Virus record (IMG/VR): IMGVR_UViG_3300044972_001114
Location: 1 to 32,501 of that record
DNA: 32,501 nucleotides
Origin: a virus
Reading direction: 5' to 3' (one strand)
The translations under genes and the position numbers were made by a program. This document shows positions 3,181-32,501 of this stretch, in pieces (the stretch's first letter is position 1; each line of letters opens with the position of its first letter). The notes beneath the pieces are model-generated. The model made no database searches. It was not told the origin of the DNA and saw only the letters and a list, made by a program, of their open reading frames with translations.

Positions 3181-3707
3181 CAGGATTTCTCGTATGCAAG
3201 GGCTTTGATCTGGTCTACCGTCATGCGCTTAGAAACGCCGTTCGGCTGTTTCACTTCGTAGGACGTAGCAAAGGCTGGCGGATTGGTCTGCCCGCTGCGG
3301 AAGTCAAGCGTATACCCAAGGCGCTTGAGCGCTGCTTCGGCTTGGTCGATGGTCAGCTTGCGCTTGCTTGTAGGCAGGGCAAAGGCGGGACGGGTAACAG
3401 CAAGAATGCTTTCCTTGACTTGTGGGTCGGCGTTGAGAACCATACGCAATGCCCAATCCATTTGCCCAAGGATTGCGCGAACAGCAGCGGCATCGTTTGC
3501 CCGCATTGCTGGCACTAGCTTGGCAAGCAAGGCATCTGCTTTGGCGGTTGCTTGTTTGACGAGTTTCTTTTCGCCCGTGCGGTACTTTTGCCCTTTGGCA
3601 TCGCGCTCTTCAATCGCCTTCATTCGTGCAATCAACGCCTCCAGCGCGTGCGTGTCCACGGCTGCGAAGATGCCTAGTCGGCGCATGATGGCCTTGCGTT
3701 GGCTCAC
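3180..3707 (-). CDS. Unknown protein between motif-repeat gene and portal
   Basis: A 175-residue basic protein that I do not recognise. It starts with GTG at 3707, overlapping the preceding TGA (GTGA junction). The N-terminus MSQRKAIMRRLGIFAA resembles those of the gene at 4924 and of the internal start at 369, which share the pattern MS..(K/R)..I..RLGFAA. A helical middle with many Lys and Ala is followed by a C-terminal segment (KLTIDQAEAALKRLGYTL, then SKRMTVDQIKALAYEKS) that looks like a small DNA- or protein-binding fold. It lacks the SRPGxKAK motif. Its position between terminase and portal suggests a head accessory or ejected protein, as inference. Confidence 0.75.
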   Translation of the reverse strand: MSQRKAIMRRLGIFAAVDTHALEALIARMKAIEERDAKGQKYRTGEKKLVKQATAKADALLAKLVPAMRANDAAAVRAILGQMDWALRMVLNADPQVKESILAVTRPAFALPTSKRKLTIDQAEAALKRLGYTLDFRSGQTNPPAFATSYEVKQPNGVSKRMTVDQIKALAYEKS

Positions 3708-4924
3708 GCCTTCGCCTTCACGCCGGGGCGGGACATCTTGTAACGCTTAACCAGTTGCTCTAGTTTGCTTCGCATACCAGTAGAAACCACGGTTTCGTCC
3801 ATTGCGTCTTGCGCGGCCTTGATCCAGCGCCGTGCATTCTCTGTGTCACCACGACGAACAGCATTCTCGGCGTTGAATATGGCTTCGCTGACAATAAAGG
3901 TTGCCGACATCTTCGCCTTCGTGCCGGGGCGGGAGGACTTGGCTTTCTTCAGTTCGTCGTACACCTCGCTACCAATTCGCTTGTAGGTTCCTTCGCCAAG
4001 CACCGAGTCGATCGCCTGCGGAACCGACAAACCCTTGGATACCAGCGTACGAATCTTGTCGCTGATTGCGGCGTTGTTGCGGATTTGATTTAGCGCGGCA
4101 TCGGCGAACTTTGCCTTTGCACCGGGGCGGGAGGCTTGCAAGGTCATCCCTAATTTCCGCGCTCTCTTTTCCAACTCCGAAATCTCTTTCGATGTTTGTT
4201 TAAAAGCAATCTCCGTTTCTTTCGCAACTGCGAATTCCTTATCTAGAAGCTTTACTAATTTTGCCTTTTTTTTCATATCAGGCGTGCGCCATGTTTGTCT
4301 ATTTAAATTATATATTCTTGGAGTTGCAGCTTTAAGATAGTCCGCCAGTTCCCTATAACGCGGCCGCAAAGTATTCAGCTTGCGTTGAATTGTCGCCTTC
4401 TCTTCATCCCTAGCGGCTGCGCGTGCAACTGCTGCTGCCTTCTCTTCGGCGATTTCTGCCTTGCGAGCAGGTGACCCCCTGAGTGGGGCTGGCCCCATTG
4501 CTGCAAAGTCTGCCTTCGCGCCAGAGCGGGAGAACGGGGACTTCGACGCGCCAAGGATCATCGACTGGGACTTGACGGCGATCCGCAGTTGCTCAACGTA
4601 ATGCTCAATGTCCTTCGCGCTGGTCGCGGTGTTGATGACCTTGATGGCGTTGGTGACATACGCGTCGAGCGCGGCGAGCCGCTCCTTGACCTTGTCGCGC
4701 ATGAACTTGTAGTTGGTGATCGCGTCCTTGGCTGCGGCTTTTGCCTCAGCGACTTGCTTGCGGTACTCCGCCGACTTGGGATCAGCCGGGTCGGCGGTCA
4801 GCGCGGTAGCCGCGTAGCCAACGCGAGACAAGAACCCCATCTCTGCCTTTGCGCTGGTGCGGGTTGTTTCCTTCACGCCTTGCGCCGCGAATCCCAAACG
4901 CTTCTCGATGTCTTGCTTGCTCAT
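3704..4924 (-). CDS. Modular protein with five SRPGxKAK-type repeats
   Basis: A 406-residue, lysine- and alanine-rich protein read from ATG 4924, chosen because AAAGGA lies just upstream; the frame stays open to 5026, but that extension runs back into terminase sequence. I do not recognise the family. Motif copies are TRTSAKAE (residues 21-28), SRSGAKAD (132-139), SRPGAKAK (265-272), SRPGTKAK (331-338) and SRPGVKAK (398-405, the very C-terminus). The last four are spaced 133, 66 and 67 residues apart, so the protein looks like strung modules of about 66 residues or twice that. The segment at 274-330 (KIRTLVSKGLSVPQAIDSVL) resembles the C-terminal module of the joint-spanning protein. The middle is predicted coiled coil. 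Neighbours are terminase and portal, suggesting a packaged or head-associated protein. Confidence 0.82.
   Translation of the reverse strand: MSKQDIEKRLGFAAQGVKETTRTSAKAEMGFLSRVGYAATALTADPADPKSAEYRKQVAEAKAAAKDAITNYKFMRDKVKERLAALDAYVTNAIKVINTATSAKDIEHYVEQLRIAVKSQSMILGASKSPFSRSGAKADFAAMGPAPLRGSPARKAEIAEEKAAAVARAAARDEEKATIQRKLNTLRPRYRELADYLKAATPRIYNLNRQTWRTPDMKKKAKLVKLLDKEFAVAKETEIAFKQTSKEISELEKRARKLGMTLQASRPGAKAKFADAALNQIRNNAAISDKIRTLVSKGLSVPQAIDSVLGEGTYKRIGSEVYDELKKAKSSRPGTKAKMSATFIVSEAIFNAENAVRRGDTENARRWIKAAQDAMDETVVSTGMRSKLEQLVKRYKMSRPGVKAKA
3710..4864 (-). repeat. Five dispersed in-gene copies of the RPGxKAK element
   Basis: Copies sit at 3710-3733, 3911-3934, 4109-4132, 4508-4531 and 4841-4864. 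On the coding strand most share CCCGCCCCGGC followed by AAGGC. Flanking protein segments differ, so these are short linkers between unlike modules rather than one tandem domain repeat. Confidence 0.75.
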
Positions 4925-4964
4925 GTGGTTCCTTTGTTGAGTAGTCCACGAGCATCGTAGCGAT

Positions 4965-6431
4965 TCAACCGAACATTCTGCGCTTGACTGCGCGAGAATC
5001 GAACATCCTGCTTGTGTCGGTCGCAACGGTGACCGCGCCGCCTGATGTCACTACCGTCCCGCTCGACGCTGCGGTGCATAGGTCAACAACGCAATCGACC
5101 GTGTCATCGTGACTGCCAGCGGGGAAGGCGAGCATTTCGTCAAGGGTGGAACGGAAGTCGGCGTGGACTTGCCCGTCATGGTTTTGCGGGAACAGGAGCT
5201 TCCCCTGCTCAACAAACGGCTGGGCGGCGGCGGCTCGTAAATGCTTGTCGGCGGTGCGGGTCACGGCAATGACGGGCTGGTGGCAGTCTTGGCGGAATTG
5301 GTCAAACACGCCCTTTTGCGGCCCGTTCGCCTCGGCTAGAACCATGCCCACGCCACGGCGCTCAACGAGGTCTTTCGCCATACGGGCGAAATCGGGGAAG
5401 GACTCGCGGACGCGGAGGATGTCGGTCAGGTACAGGTTGCGGGCTTGGTCAACCTCACCAACGATGCAGACCGAGTAGTCGGGGTCGTCGCGCTCTTGGC
5501 GCTTCTTTCCGTACCCCCAGTCGATGGCGGCAACTGTGCGCGTACCGAGGGGGACTGTGCCAGCGCGGTAGTAGCGCGTCCATTCCGGTCGGAAGATCAG
5601 GAGGTCGGAGGACAGCGGAACGAGTTCGTAGGCTCGGGCGTATGCCATCGGCCCCATCTCGCGGCGCTTCTGGTCGAGGATCTCAGGCGTGAACACGCTT
5701 GCCCACGGGCTAATCAGTCCCCGGCAAGGCTCGCGTAAGAGCGTGCCAGCGCGTTCGCATTCTCTGCGCCAGTCGGCGGTAATGTCGTCCGTATGGAAGG
5801 GGGTCGCCGTGCGCCAAATGCGGGCGGGGTGCTTCGCGGACGGGTCAAGCATGGGGAGCCAGATGTTGTTCATCGCCTCCTTGACCTGTGCGCGAAGGGT
5901 GGGTTGGAGGACGGCGTTGCGTAGGTCGCAGATGTCATCCGGCCAAAGAACGTCGGCGCGTCCGCCCGTTCGCCCAAAGATGCCGGAGGCTTGCACGGAC
6001 GGGTCACGCCTTGCCCCTACCCCGGGCGCGGTGATCGACCACGCCATGACCGTATCTTCCCCGGGCTTGAGTTCGACATGGGGGAAAGTGGCGCGGTAGA
6101 TGGGGCTGCGGATGATGTCGCGCAGGAAGCGGGAGGTTGCGGACGCGGCTTCGTCGTTCTGCCCGATCAGCTTAAAGCGTGTCGCTGGGCGACGACCGAG
6201 CCACCACGCGGCCAAATATGTAAGGCTGCTGGTCTTCGCGTGACCACGCGGGATTTCACCGTACCAACTGTGATGCTTCAGCGCGTGCGCGATCAGCCTG
6301 CGCTGAAGGTCGGAGGCGGGCTTGCCGAGGCACAAGGCTAAGAAGGCAACCGGGTTCTCCCGCGCTGCGGCGACCGCTTGCTCCGGGGTCAGGCTTTGCG
6401 CTTTGGTTTTCGCTTTGGCTTTGGAAGGCAC
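4965..6431 (-). CDS. terL: Terminase large subunit
   Basis: A 488-residue DNA-packaging motor. The ATPase half shows a Walker A-like GEIPRGHAKT (residues 58-67), a Walker B VLWPDD (161-166) and the coupling motif TATPFH (208-213). The nuclease half shows AAIDWGYG (Asp304), LAEANG (Glu367) and SHDDTVD (Asp442/443), the acidic set of RNase H-like terminase nucleases. It converts concatemeric DNA into genome units and drives it through the portal. The start is GTG 6431, inside the end of the upstream gene (43-base overlap); no good ribosome site is visible there, so coupling is likely. The N-terminus is Lys/Ala-rich. Confidence 0.93.
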   Translation of the reverse strand: MPSKAKAKTKAQSLTPEQAVAAARENPVAFLALCLGKPASDLQRRLIAHALKHHSWYGEIPRGHAKTSSLTYLAAWWLGRRPATRFKLIGQNDEAASATSRFLRDIIRSPIYRATFPHVELKPGEDTVMAWSITAPGVGARRDPSVQASGIFGRTGGRADVLWPDDICDLRNAVLQPTLRAQVKEAMNNIWLPMLDPSAKHPARIWRTATPFHTDDITADWRRECERAGTLLREPCRGLISPWASVFTPEILDQKRREMGPMAYARAYELVPLSSDLLIFRPEWTRYYRAGTVPLGTRTVAAIDWGYGKKRQERDDPDYSVCIVGEVDQARNLYLTDILRVRESFPDFARMAKDLVERRGVGMVLAEANGPQKGVFDQFRQDCHQPVIAVTRTADKHLRAAAAQPFVEQGKLLFPQNHDGQVHADFRSTLDEMLAFPAGSHDDTVDCVVDLCTAASSGTVVTSGGAVTVATDTSRMFDSRAVKRRMFG

Positions 6432-13949: not shown

Positions 13950-14357
13950 TTACTTTGCCTCTCCCTCGCCGTTGCCTTCGGGTGGCGGCGAGGTTTCTTT
14001 TTGTCCAAATGGGATCATGCGATTGAGCGCCTCGCGCCGCTTCGCGCACCCTCCGCAAGTCCTGATGCCGACCGCCTTCGTCATGGCCTGCACTACGTCA
14101 CCCATCCCGCGCAGGCGCGGCTCACGCGCAGGTCGCGTAGGGGCAACGATCTCAGCCGCTGGCGGGGGCGACTTCATCCCGGCGAACAAGGGCGGGTCGG
14201 TGATGTTTCCCTCACGGCTGACGCGCGAGCCACAGGTATCACATTGCGCGGTATCTAGCCCGAGCAAGCAGACCGGGGCAGTACCAGCGACGCGCCACGA
14301 CTTGCAGTCCGCAATGGGGAGGGATATGCCGGAGATGTTGAGCGTGCCGAGCGTCAT
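13950..14357 (-). CDS. Late zinc-ribbon-like small protein
   Basis: A 135-residue protein and the last gene of the leftward unit. ATG 14357 overlaps the upstream stop as ATGA. It has paired cysteines (CDTCGSRVSREG near residue 40 and GIRTCGGCAKRREALNRMIP near residue 105) that could bind one zinc, with a proline- and arginine-rich linker between. The ending CGGCAKRREALN is common in small phage proteins encoded near tail and lysis genes. Function unknown. Its last ~17 codons coincide with the rightward terminator. Confidence 0.7.
   Translation of the reverse strand: MTLGTLNISGISLPIADCKSWRVAGTAPVCLLGLDTAQCDTCGSRVSREGNITDPPLFAGMKSPPPAAEIVAPTRPAREPRLRGMGDVVQAMTKAVGIRTCGGCAKRREALNRMIPFGQKETSPPPEGNGEGEAK
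13964..14002 (+). terminator. Rightward terminator inside the convergent gene
   Basis: The stem cctcgccg.. (13964-13976) with ..cggcgagg (13981-13993) around ttcg is followed by tttcttttt. It ends the rightward unit but lies wholly within the 3' end of the leftward gene at 14357-13950. Confidence 0.75.
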
Positions 14358-16192
14358 GACGATAAGCCTATGACCGTGCCGTCAGACTTGCAAAAGATTC
14401 GCGGCGATTGGAACGAATGGAAGCAAGGTTGCGGGAGAGGATGGTCGATGTCCCATTGACCTCCCGCCGTGCAGTCTTCGCCCTCTGGGCAGCACGGCGC
14501 AGGCTCGTAGGTGAATGGGTAGGCGTAGCACCCCGTGCGAGGGTCTGGCATTGAGGGGCAGAGGGACTCCCAGCCGTACACAAGGACGATGATGTCGTCC
14601 CCGATGGTGACCGTGATGTCTTCAAGCGGCCACCCGTTTCGCGCTTCGCAGTTAGTGACGTCTTGGAAGAAGGCAATGTCCACGCAGATTGAAATATCAG
14701 CGCTCGCGTACTCCTGAATGCGCTTCATCTGGTAGCGCTCGCCAAAGGAGTATTCGGGGAAGGAGAGGCATTGAATGACGAACGGCTGCGAATCTGTCAG
14801 CGCGGAGATGGCCGCGTTACAGGTGTTCTCCGTCGTCATTTGCCACGGGTAATCCACGATCAAAGTCTGCGTCGCGCACGCGTAGTATCGGATGGCAGTA
14901 CCGACGAGCGTGACCGTAATGTCCTGATTGCCGTTCGTAAACTCCACGCGGTCAACCGTGAGCAGGTCGCCAGCGGAGAATCCGGGGCGGTCGTTCGGGG
15001 TCTGCCAGTCGCAGGCAACGCAGGACTGGCGATTGCCGAACCAGAAGTAAGCGGACCAAGGCGCAATACCTGAGGCCGTCACTAGCCCGCCAATACGGTC
15101 ATTGATCCTTTGCGCGACGTGTCCGGCGTTTCCTGAGAAGATCACCACGTCAAGACCACAGACGCTCAGCTTGGGCGCTCCAAGCGTCCCCCAGCCTGTC
15201 GCCACGGTGTTCTCTTGGTCGATATGCACGATGCCAGACACCCCAAGGAACAAGGCATCAAGCGCAGCCTGTGCGCCCGGATCGTCTGGGTCAATCCCCG
15301 GCGCAAAGCACGCAGGGAAGACAATCGTCATGATGTCCTCAACATGGTCGGCGCACCCGAATGAATTCAGGCTGTAGCACGTCCGCACGTCGTACGTCTC
15401 AAAGCGATCCTCGAAACTGTCGCAGAAGTTTGGGTCGCTGTCGCAGTTCGGGGTATTGCCGCAGCAGTCGCCTTGCGGCTCGCAGTCAGGGCAATCCATG
15501 TGCTCGATGTAGTTCTGCGTGACCTGATTCGGGCAGCTGCCCAGCGTGACCGGGTCGCGCACGGTGCAAAAACTCATTTCCTGCGACATTGCGACACTCA
15601 AGGTCTGGATTTCCTCGGGCGGTCCGTGATCGCAGCGATCCTCCCACGGGACGCCAATCGTCTCAATGCAAGTGTTTGCTACGCTCGCAATGGTCACCCC
15701 CTTACCCTTGACGGTTCCGGCTTGATCCTTGAAGTCATAGCACTCGGCTATTAACTCCTCGCAAGGCAGTTCAGGGTCGTTCTCAATGACGGGACCTTCC
15801 TCGGTTTCAAGGTCGGCAATCCCGCCGGGGTTGCCCTGCACGGCTGGCTCCGGGTAGCAGCATGGGTTCTCGCCGATGACGCGATCTTTGACCTTGTACA
15901 AGATCCCCACATTGACCGGGTTGGTCGATAGCGGATTCGGGCAAGGCAACGCCTCCACACCTGTCAGGATGTAGATGCAGCAGTCGTACTTGATGTAGTA
16001 GCACTTGGTCGCAATGTCTGGCGGGTCGGGGATGCCGATTGAGATCAAGTACCCGAGGCAGAATTCAATGCGATCAGGCGCTGCCTCGCAGTCTGGCGGG
16101 CAGCAATACTCGTCAAAATACTCAGGGCATTTCAGGGCGTACCAAAGCACGCCGGGGTCGCAGCAACACGAAGCGGCAAGTATCGCGCTCAC
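14354..16192 (-). CDS. Cysteine-rich 612-residue late protein
   Basis: Read from GTG 16192, which overlaps the stop of a 15-codon peptide as GTGA, this 612-residue protein has 44 cysteines (about 7%), with clusters SCCC, YCCPPDC, DCC, PCC and DCCGNTPNC in the first half and a final PCCPEGEDC. The second half also carries beta-rich, adhesin-like stretches. I do not recognise the family. Downstream position after the tailspike and small membrane proteins suggests a virion-surface, tail-tip or lysis-associated protein. Phage proteins made in the cytoplasm rarely carry so many cysteines, so metal clusters, zinc sites or late disulphides are possibilities. The frame is open to 16282, but that extension would overlap two small genes. 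Confidence 0.82.
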   Translation of the reverse strand: MSAILAASCCCDPGVLWYALKCPEYFDEYCCPPDCEAAPDRIEFCLGYLISIGIPDPPDIATKCYYIKYDCCIYILTGVEALPCPNPLSTNPVNVGILYKVKDRVIGENPCCYPEPAVQGNPGGIADLETEEGPVIENDPELPCEELIAECYDFKDQAGTVKGKGVTIASVANTCIETIGVPWEDRCDHGPPEEIQTLSVAMSQEMSFCTVRDPVTLGSCPNQVTQNYIEHMDCPDCEPQGDCCGNTPNCDSDPNFCDSFEDRFETYDVRTCYSLNSFGCADHVEDIMTIVFPACFAPGIDPDDPGAQAALDALFLGVSGIVHIDQENTVATGWGTLGAPKLSVCGLDVVIFSGNAGHVAQRINDRIGGLVTASGIAPWSAYFWFGNRQSCVACDWQTPNDRPGFSAGDLLTVDRVEFTNGNQDITVTLVGTAIRYYACATQTLIVDYPWQMTTENTCNAAISALTDSQPFVIQCLSFPEYSFGERYQMKRIQEYASADISICVDIAFFQDVTNCEARNGWPLEDITVTIGDDIIVLVYGWESLCPSMPDPRTGCYAYPFTYEPAPCCPEGEDCTAGGQWDIDHPLPQPCFHSFQSPRIFCKSDGTVIGLSS

Positions 16193-16236
16193 GCTACGAT
16201 GATAATGCAGAGGGCGTAGATGACGACGCGGATCAT
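16189..16236 (-). CDS. 15-codon hydrophobic peptide, coupled at both ends
   Basis: The frame reads MIRVVIYALCIIIVA and stops. Its ATG overlaps the stop of the 37-codon gene (ATGA at 16233-16236) and its TGA overlaps the GTG of the cysteine-rich gene (GTGA at 16189-16192). Both overlaps fit the coupling style of the whole operon. It may be a membrane peptide or only a bridge that delivers ribosomes to the next gene. Confidence 0.5.
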   Translation of the reverse strand: MIRVVIYALCIIIVA

Positions 16237-16346
16237 CGTCCGGCCTTCTTGGTGGCGAGATACCAGCCTGCGCCGAAAGCAATGGCGGCGGCGGCGAGTG
16301 CGAACCAAAGACTACCGAGGAAGCTGGAGAAGTCTGCGAGGATCAT
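16233..16346 (-). CDS. Holin-like 37-residue membrane protein
   Basis: ATG 16346 starts two bases after the upstream TAA. The peptide begins MILADFSSFLGSLW, has one hydrophobic segment (FALAAAAIAFGAGWYLA) and ends KKAGR. One transmembrane helix plus a basic tail is typical of small phage holins or lysis-associated peptides, and the surrounding genes are membrane proteins. The lysis role is inferred from context. Confidence 0.6.
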   Translation of the reverse strand: MILADFSSFLGSLWFALAAAAIAFGAGWYLATKKAGR

Positions 16347-16348
16347 GT

Positions 16349-16837
16349 TTATGCCTTTCGTCTGGTCTGTGCTTTTCGAAATGCCGCATCGAACATCGGG
16401 TCTTGTGCGCGCATTGCTGCAATGTACTCCCGATCCCCTTCGGGTCGATTGGGGTCTAGCATATCGACCGCCATCTCGGCTGCAACTACCTTTTTCCTAG
16501 GAAGCCAGCCAACCGCAATGCGTAAAAATGACCCCAGTCCAGTTTGGAGCAGGAGGATGACGAGCGCCACGGCCACCACGGCTACCGCCCCATAGGTCAA
16601 GGCGGTCAGCCACATGGGGGTCTTATTTTCCACGCCTGAAAGCTGCACATGAATCCCGGACGCGAGCGCCTCAATGCGGGTAGCACGGGAAACCACCTCC
16701 GCGTCCCCTGTCTCCGTCCCGCGCTGGATCAGCCCCTGAGCCTCGGCGCGGATGTCGTTGGAACTCTGCGCGATCCGCTGTACCGGGCTGCACGCTGACA
16801 GCCAAAGGCAGGCGGTCACGGCGAGCGCCCACCACAT
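16349..16837 (-). CDS. Lipoprotein with a second membrane segment, spanin-like
   Basis: A 162-residue protein. The N-terminal signal ends in the lipobox LSAC (Cys16), so the mature protein would be a lipoprotein. A second hydrophobic stretch spans residues 77-99 (LTALTYGAVAVVAVALVILL), followed by a basic and acidic tail. Lipoprotein plus inner-membrane segment is the layout of unimolecular spanins, which fuse inner and outer membranes at lysis, although here ~60 residues follow the second segment. It is coupled to the preceding coiled-coil membrane protein (TAATG at 16835-16839). The presence of a lipobox supports a diderm host. Confidence 0.6.
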   Translation of the reverse strand: MWWALAVTACLWLSACSPVQRIAQSSNDIRAEAQGLIQRGTETGDAEVVSRATRIEALASGIHVQLSGVENKTPMWLTALTYGAVAVVAVALVILLLQTGLGSFLRIAVGWLPRKKVVAAEMAVDMLDPNRPEGDREYIAAMRAQDPMFDAAFRKAQTRRKA

Positions 16838-17100
16838 TAACGCTTCTCGATGCGCATAACGCGATCTTCTAGCCCGCGAACGCGCTCGCCGATGACTTGG
16901 ATTTGGGCGTTGCCCGATGTCGCTAACTCCTGTATTCGACCCAGTTCCGCCGCCATGCGGTCAAGGCTACGGGTCTGTTGTTCATCGCGTTCCGAGCGGC
17001 TCCCGGCGTACGCCATCGCACCAATGAGGGCAACGAGGGCGACGCAGAATTGACCGTAACGGAGCCAGCGGTCGATAGTGGATGCTACTTCTTGTGTCAT
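16837..17100 (-). CDS. Membrane-anchored coiled-coil protein, i-spanin-like
   Basis: An 87-residue protein from ATG 17100, which follows the tailspike TAA by one base. A single N-terminal hydrophobic segment (FCVALVALIGAMAYAG, residues ~18-33) is followed by a long coiled coil (LDRMAAELGRIQELA, then VIGERVRGLEDRVMRIEK). This N-in, C-out layout with a periplasmic coiled coil resembles inner-membrane spanins and XhlA-type proteins. It is adjacent to a lipoprotein, as an i-spanin/o-spanin pair would be. No ribosome site is visible, so coupling is likely. Confidence 0.6.
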   Translation of the reverse strand: MTQEVASTIDRWLRYGQFCVALVALIGAMAYAGSRSERDEQQTRSLDRMAAELGRIQELATSGNAQIQVIGERVRGLEDRVMRIEKR

Positions 17101-32037: not shown

Positions 32038-32501
32038 TTACAGTTCTCCTCTGCGCTTCATGTCGAGCGCGATTGCGATCGCTTGGTCTTGTGGCTTGCC
32101 TTCTTTGATGAGGGTGGCTATTTTTTCGCCGACGGCTGGGTCAGCGGCGGACATGATCTTCAGCCCTGCCTTCTGCTCCTCGGTCTGATCGCGGGTCATG
32201 CGGGTCTTTGTGCCGGGGCGGGAGGACTTCATTTGTCCAAAGTCAATGGTGACAATCCCAATGTGCTGCGCTGGGCCGTCTTGATCTGCGGGATATTGAT
32301 TCTCGCGTGCTGTGATTGCCGATTCCGGAACGCCCATTTGCTTCATTGCTCCCTTGAGTTTGGAAACCATTTCAGTTGCCTTGCCCTTTTGGTCAATGAA
32401 CTCAACGTGTGCAACGCCGAAACGGCTTGACGCGCTGATATTGTCCGGCTTGAATCCAAACCGTGAAATCAAAGACCTCAATTTGGTTTCAATATCGCCA
32501 G
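32038..32501 (-). CDS. Motif-repeat protein spanning the joint, C-terminal part
   Basis: This is the continuation of the frame that starts at 582. It holds a segment (GVAHVEFIDQKGKATEMVSK, MKQMGVPESAITARENQ, HIGIVTIDFGQMKS) like a small alpha/beta domain, then the motif SRPGTKTR (32200-32223) and a C-terminal helical module (VGEKIATLIKEGKPQDQAIA, then RRGEL), similar to a module of the gene at 4924. A TTG at 32481 could be mistaken for its start, but the frame is open across the joint. The TAA is followed at once by the next ATG. Confidence 0.8.
   Translation of the reverse strand, partial: GDIETKLRSLISRFGFKPDNISASSRFGVAHVEFIDQKGKATEMVSKLKGAMKQMGVPESAITARENQYPADQDGPAQHIGIVTIDFGQMKSSRPGTKTRMTRDQTEEQKAGLKIMSAADPAVGEKIATLIKEGKPQDQAIAIALDMKRRGEL
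32200..32223 (-). repeat. RPGxKAK motif copy in joint-spanning gene, C-terminal
   Basis: It encodes SRPGTKTR; on the plus strand it reads gtgccggggcgggaggac. The same plus-strand string occurs around 3921-3938 in the other motif-repeat gene. Confidence 0.75.
32389..32501. repeat. Terminal direct repeat, right copy
   Basis: This is identical to bases 1-113. Removing one copy gives a circle of 32,388 bases with an intact gene across the joint. Confidence 0.97.

Follow-up and report, generated by a model that had tools for sequence, protein, structure and literature searches.

Is a reading frame of only 15 codons, held between a one-helix membrane gene and a cysteine-rich gene by overlapping stop and start codons, a gene in its own right, and if so, does its peptide matter or only its position? 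The question arises in an uncultured tailed phage (G000), whose 32.5-kb record is the whole stretch of DNA that we analysed (the window). We recognised a terminase, a Mu-type portal, MuF head proteins and a tail fibre in it. Two further proteins of the window, both encoded on the minus strand (3704-5026 and 32038-32481), carry repeated SRPGxKxK-like motifs (SSRPGTKAKM, MSRPGVKAKA, SSRPGTKTRM). In a close relative, G003, the MuF-like head protein (L082:10554-12464, minus strand) is 636 aa long versus 360 aa and has weak intein-splicing/HINT matches between its conserved parts, which may mark an intein within this head gene.

A chain of coupled genes beyond the tail fibre

On the minus strand, 3' of the tail fibre gene, we found a chain of genes for proteins of 87, 162, 37, 15, 612 and 135 aa, linked throughout by stop/start overlaps or a 2-nt gap. 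The topologies of the small proteins were assigned by eye. The first gene of the chain (16837-17100) encodes the 87-aa protein, which has an N-terminal transmembrane segment and a coiled-coil-like tail. Its stop overlaps the start of the next gene (TAATG), which encodes the 162-aa protein (16349-16837), with a lipobox-like N-terminus (WLSAC), an internal transmembrane segment and a cytoplasm-like tail. The 37-codon gene (16233-16346; MILADFSSFLGSLWFALAAAAIAFGAGWYLATKKAGR) begins 2 nt after the 162-aa stop and encodes a one-helix membrane protein; its ATG is at 16346-16344, its last sense codon ends at 16236 and its TGA stop is at 16235-16233. The 15-codon frame (16189-16236; MIRVVIYALCIIIVA) runs from an ATG at 16236-16234 through a last sense codon ending at 16192 to a TGA at 16191-16189. 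Its start shares the 4-nt ATGA at 16233-16236 with the stop of the 37-codon gene, within whose end, 5' of the 15-codon start, lies AAGAAGG (16244-16250), which resembles a ribosome-binding site (-5.0 kcal/mol with the anti-Shine-Dalgarno sequence). The 15-codon stop in turn shares the 4-nt GTGA at 16189-16192 with the start of the 612-aa cysteine-rich gene (14354-16192; GTG 16192-16190, stop 14356-14354), whose product begins MSAILAASCCC. The chain ends with the 135-aa gene (13950-14357), the start of which overlaps the cysteine-rich stop (ATGA). The 135-aa protein matched phrog_32048, a family annotated as of unknown function (E=8e-7). Pfam and PHROG searches gave no family match for the window's 87-, 162-, 37- and 612-aa proteins. 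Searching annotated phages by tblastn with the 87-, 162- and 612-aa sequences returned nothing useful. An earlier, sequence-only reading had described the 37- and 15-codon genes as chained by ATGA and leading by GTGA into the cysteine-rich gene. That description is exact, and its span, 16189-16346, is correct for the minus strand.

The 15-codon frame is kept at a single kind of site

Short frames flanked by RTGA are not rare, with 16 of 8-40 codons on the minus strand of the window, so the anatomy of the junction is by itself weak evidence for a gene. We collected relatives through the cysteine-rich protein (28 loci by protein search and 40 by alignment search), all of them from uncultured contigs that are often partial. 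Homologues of the 37-codon gene, 33-43 aa long, stand 5' of the junction in nearly all relatives. Where the cassette is of the same type as in the window, the 15-codon frame is always present, starting with ATG or GTG; neither its length nor its frame offset changes, and both 4-nt overlaps are kept. L070 and L071 retain the frame (peptide VTRLLIFIAALVIVA) and both overlaps even though identity of their downstream protein is no more than about 52-54%. Their stop context, GCA-TGA, puts an ATG in place of the downstream GTG, at the position of GTG 16192, so that the overlap survives the change. A loose, degenerate nucleotide pattern of the 15-mer matched 33 of 2.9 million viral contigs, every time at this junction and nowhere else. 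Relatives of the 162-aa gene numbered 12 in one search, and a search with the L070 homologue reached 54 loci. The latter added nine contigs with more diverged peptides, which include VMKFFVILISALVMVA (16 codons), VMPFLIIALCIVMVA, VSRLLFFIAAIIIVA, VTHLLIFIAALVIVA, VLKLVLALCLVIVA (14 codons) and MRLVILALVIVIVA (14 codons). Besides the window, about 42 contigs thus carry the micro-gene (33 found by the pattern and nine through the 162-aa gene). Conservation, the pattern scan and the codon-position statistics given below rule out a chance frame, and by these comparisons we conclude that the 15-codon frame is a real gene.

Selection acts on the amino acids of the peptide

A set of loci found with a pattern is biased by that pattern. 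Therefore, we tested for selection on loci reached by way of the downstream protein. On a locally built tree of this recombining region, parsimony placed 10, 1 and 26 changes at the first, second and third positions of codons 2-15 when L070 and L071 were left out (26 of 37 at position 3), and 16, 5 and 32 when they were included. The excess at third positions (P=5e-6) and the deficit at second positions (P=6e-6) were computed without L070/L071; with them, P was approximately 5e-5. None of 2000 neutral simulations retained the start, the frame and the all-hydrophobic core. Pairwise pN/pS of the 15-mer was 0.47 in frame, compared with 0.78 and 2.6 in the other two frames. Across 19 DNA versions, which encode 11 peptides of 14-16 codons, mean entropy over the last 12 codons was 0.86, 0.32 and 1.09 bits at positions 1, 2 and 3. 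In the final three codons positions 1 and 2 are invariant and position 3 is free, and 11/11 peptides end in [I/M]VA. Near-fixed second positions with free third positions point to a constraint on amino acids rather than on an RNA signal, and the constraint peaks at the C-terminal [I/M]VA. Evidence for a folded RNA at the junction was not convincing (z=-1.7, with 10 of 200 shuffles folding equally well). The 15-codon frame thus shows the amino-acid-level purifying selection of a protein-coding gene, and on this comparative evidence we conclude that the peptide itself is selected.

Probable ribosome delivery to the cysteine-rich gene

GTG 16192 is the true start of the cysteine-rich gene: in 6 of 20 relatives no further start lies in frame 5' of it, and L070/L071 have their ATG in the same place. 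We rejected the 642-aa frame from TTG 16282, given in a mechanical list of open reading frames, as an over-extension, because that start is unavailable in 6 of 20 relatives. The sequence-only reading had also held that the GTG has no ribosome site of its own. This held up in the window, where the duplex of the region before GTG 16192 with the anti-Shine-Dalgarno sequence was +0.5 kcal/mol, little or no site, in comparison with the value for AAGAAGG given above. Over distinct junctions the micro-gene has a stronger ribosome site than the downstream start (median -4.5 vs -2.6 kcal/mol, P=0.015). We rejected the idea that the ribosome site is invariably better at junctions free of the 15-mer, because over 30 distinct junctions downstream site strength did not differ significantly with and without the micro-gene (P=0.17).

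If the 15-mer were absent, 40 nt would separate the GTG from the nearest previous stop. Reinitiation requires an overlap or a very short gap (PMC10666635; PMC12548453), and in native E. coli pairs a 38-nt gap cuts it by 80-100% (PMC10666635). Coupled pairs have overlaps of 4 or 1 nt or a spacing of a few nt; ATGA and GTGA are of this kind, and relatives keep both. In nearly all lineages the downstream start overlaps or nearly touches whichever gene precedes it, which fits a relay. Taken together, these data suggest that the 15-mer most likely relays ribosomes to the cysteine-rich gene, so that anatomy and comparison support the relay that the sequence-only reading had offered as one possibility. 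Because the peptide is under selection, the 15-mer would not be a relay only.

Junctions without the micro-gene and exchange of cassettes

Several lineages lack the 15-mer. Direct overlap of the one-helix gene with the downstream gene, through ATGA or GTGA, marks one cassette type (L002, L016-L020, L062-L064, L074), and in L173-L182 a different one-helix gene overlaps in this way. Other junctions have a gap of 1 nt (L073, L075) or 3 nt (L026), or an overlap with a 177-aa gene (L027). Judging from these junctions, a small gene mostly overlaps or abuts the downstream gene directly when the 15-mer is missing, which suggests that the micro-gene is dispensable for the downstream gene where another small gene takes up that position.

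The tree of the cysteine-rich proteins requires at least three changes of 15-mer presence. L002, with a downstream protein 88% identical to that of the window, is nested in the 15-mer group yet has the other cassette type. These two results indicate that upstream cassette and junction swap as a block. The sequence-only reading had named loss of the frame in close relatives as a refutation, and this applies in part. L002 is such a relative and does lack the frame, but its whole upstream cassette is of the other type and overlaps the downstream gene directly.

In an alternative cassette, seen in L016 (4413-4989) and L085 (4823-5119), a 98-111-aa lipoprotein with a C-terminal membrane segment, together with 42-aa and 38-aa membrane genes, replaces the 87/162/37/15 set. 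The contig of L085/L086 (G012) has head and packaging genes unlike those of the window and two copies of the block of spanin-like, one-helix and cysteine-rich genes, the second with a 439-aa protein that begins MSHKKCCC. In L186, L188 and L191 distant homologues of the 162-aa gene and a one-helix gene lie shortly 5' of terminase-region genes rather than of a cysteine-rich gene, a location that indicates movement of the cassette between genome positions.

The downstream slot is exchanged as well: behind the 15-mer stand cysteine-rich proteins of at least four groups that are unrelated in sequence, yet all four have much the same N-terminus. This 11-residue stretch, resembling MS[A/G]-x-x-x-x-[S/A/T]-CCC (16192-16160 in the window), is common to unrelated cysteine-rich proteins of about 300, 490 and 610 aa, found at the same slot in L070, L095, L102, L161 and L178, so that a short common head is joined to exchangeable bodies. 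No relatives of the cysteine-rich protein were confirmed in bacterial or archaeal genomes, and an AlphaFold2 model of the 612-aa protein from 31 sequences was unusable (pLDDT 46).

What the micro-gene may do

We consider it probable that the 15-codon frame is a truly translated micro-gene that serves as a ribosome relay and whose peptide has a further function, most likely at the membrane. The micro-gene would be the fourth link of the gene chain. Ribosomes ending the 37-codon gene would restart at once on the overlapping ATG, aided by AAGAAGG. Fifteen codons later they would terminate right at the GTG that opens the cysteine-rich gene and start again on it, since this GTG, as we propose, cannot itself recruit ribosomes. 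The released peptide, which is hydrophobic, with charge close to the N-terminus and [I/M]VA at its end, would then act most likely at the membrane with the preceding one-helix protein. Its role may be that of a membrane peptide beside this protein, or it may lie in what the nascent chain does at its own stop codon. Several points weigh against the explanation as a whole: a stretch of 12 hydrophobic residues is short for a full membrane span, several lineages manage the same junction without the micro-gene, the strength of the downstream site shows no significant difference, and the codon-position statistics come from parsimony on a local tree where recombination occurs.

Four other explanations deserve weighing against it. 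The 15 codons could merely deliver ribosomes to the next start, the peptide being meaningless. Position, overlaps and the weak downstream start would all suit this, and both short upstream frames and MIRU elements, which bring ribosomes to a start at -4 spacing, serve as a precedent (PMC12548453). A relay alone needs just a start, a length and a stop, however, whereas the amino acids are selected and the [I/M]VA end never varies; the codon-position entropy already disfavours this explanation, and we regard it as unlikely. We give about the same small weight to a nascent-peptide switch, in which the peptide, still in the ribosome tunnel at its stop, would slow termination or favour reinitiation and so tune the cysteine-rich gene. 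Conservation does peak, at the amino-acid level, in the residues beside the stop, and length is constant at 14-16 codons. A chain of 15 residues cannot leave the tunnel before termination, which also speaks for a switch. On the other side, no known arrest motif was identified, no inducer is known and relatives do without the 15-mer.

A role in host lysis, in which the 15-mer would act with the 37-aa one-helix protein as holin, antiholin or similar, appears rather doubtful, though not as improbable as a bare relay. The neighbours invite the idea: the 87-aa protein (membrane segment and coil) and the 162-aa protein (lipobox and membrane segment) have spanin-like topologies, the L070 homologue of the 87-aa protein weakly matches the Rz-like spanin phrog_1026 (E=0.002), and these lysis-like cassettes, of two types, exchange as a block. 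The 111-aa lipoprotein of L016, with its C-terminal membrane segment, stands at the same place and has the layout of a unimolecular spanin (PMC6139136). It fits that class better than the 162-aa protein, in which WLSAC and the membrane segment are followed by a tail of about 60 residues. Against lysis, the cassette adjoins tail-fibre genes, several otherwise similar cassettes lack the 15-mer, and the proteins scanned from the window and from longer relatives, genomes that may be incomplete, included no recognisable endolysin. For this last reason we do not class the 15-mer as a lysis gene, and the minimal lysis peptide suggested by the sequence-only reading was not borne out. Finally, a -1 frameshift at the 15-mer stop might fuse the peptide to SAILAASCCC, and the cysteine-rich product would then be exported, either secreted or as a lipoprotein. 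Read as a fusion, MIRVVIYALCIIIVA-SAILAASC does resemble a signal peptide, and A-x-[S/A/T]-C is frequent near the start of the downstream proteins. Yet no slippery heptamer X-XXY-YYZ, the mark of -1 frameshifting, was seen when we read the 15-mer in its DNA versions, the bases required vary in GTN-GCR-TGA, and alanine tRNA, the last one, would not be expected to re-pair one base back. Moreover, L026, L027 and L173-L183 have the same N-terminal motif without any 15-mer, and the second cassette type has MSRRRTCCC. The missing slippery site and the motif without the 15-mer led us to reject a frameshift-fused signal peptide, which we hold to be very unlikely.

Returning to the micro-gene as relay and functional peptide, a bolder form can be put forward as speculation that we would not expect to hold: a hydrophobic peptide of 14-16 codons with a fixed [I/M]VA end would act inside the ribosome or just after it, controlling how ribosomes reinitiate on a cysteine-rich cargo gene that can be exchanged, and would have a second action at the membrane. 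If this were true, few tailed-phage genes with selection at the peptide level would be shorter. The comparative data show such selection at 14-16 codons, at a fixed site with a one-helix gene before it and an exchangeable cysteine-rich gene after it. They offer a small, clean system in which to ask if one peptide can serve as ribosome relay and as functional product at once, and if reinitiation is tuned by the nascent residues beside the stop. A 15-codon gene escapes gene finders with the usual length limits, so such phage micro-genes are probably under-counted.

Comparison with known systems

Leader peptides of amino-acid operons have 14-16 residues and precede a gene, similar to the 15-mer in length and position. 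The 15-mer differs from them in having no run of regulatory codons, a conserved hydrophobic sequence and overlaps on both sides. The unimolecular spanin gp11 of phage T1 (PMC6139136) has both a lipobox at its N-terminus and a transmembrane segment, as does the 111-aa neighbour and, with its lipobox-like WLSAC, perhaps the 162-aa one. The 162-aa form differs in its residues past the membrane segment and in being without a family match, and no endolysin was found nearby. Genes VII and IX of phage f1 belong to another phage type (filamentous), are about twice as long as the micro-gene and encode virion proteins. As at the 15-mer junction, the proteins are tiny and hydrophobic, the overlap is of the -4 nt kind and a start is poor when alone; we claim no homology. 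The two f1 genes are coupled at a spacing of -4, and the start of gene VII, inherently defective, functions through coupling (PMC12548453). Short upstream frames and MIRU elements likewise place a short frame that ends in a -4 overlap with the next start (PMC12548453). Their function is thought to be delivery only, and the 15-mer differs from them in that the sequence of its peptide is conserved.
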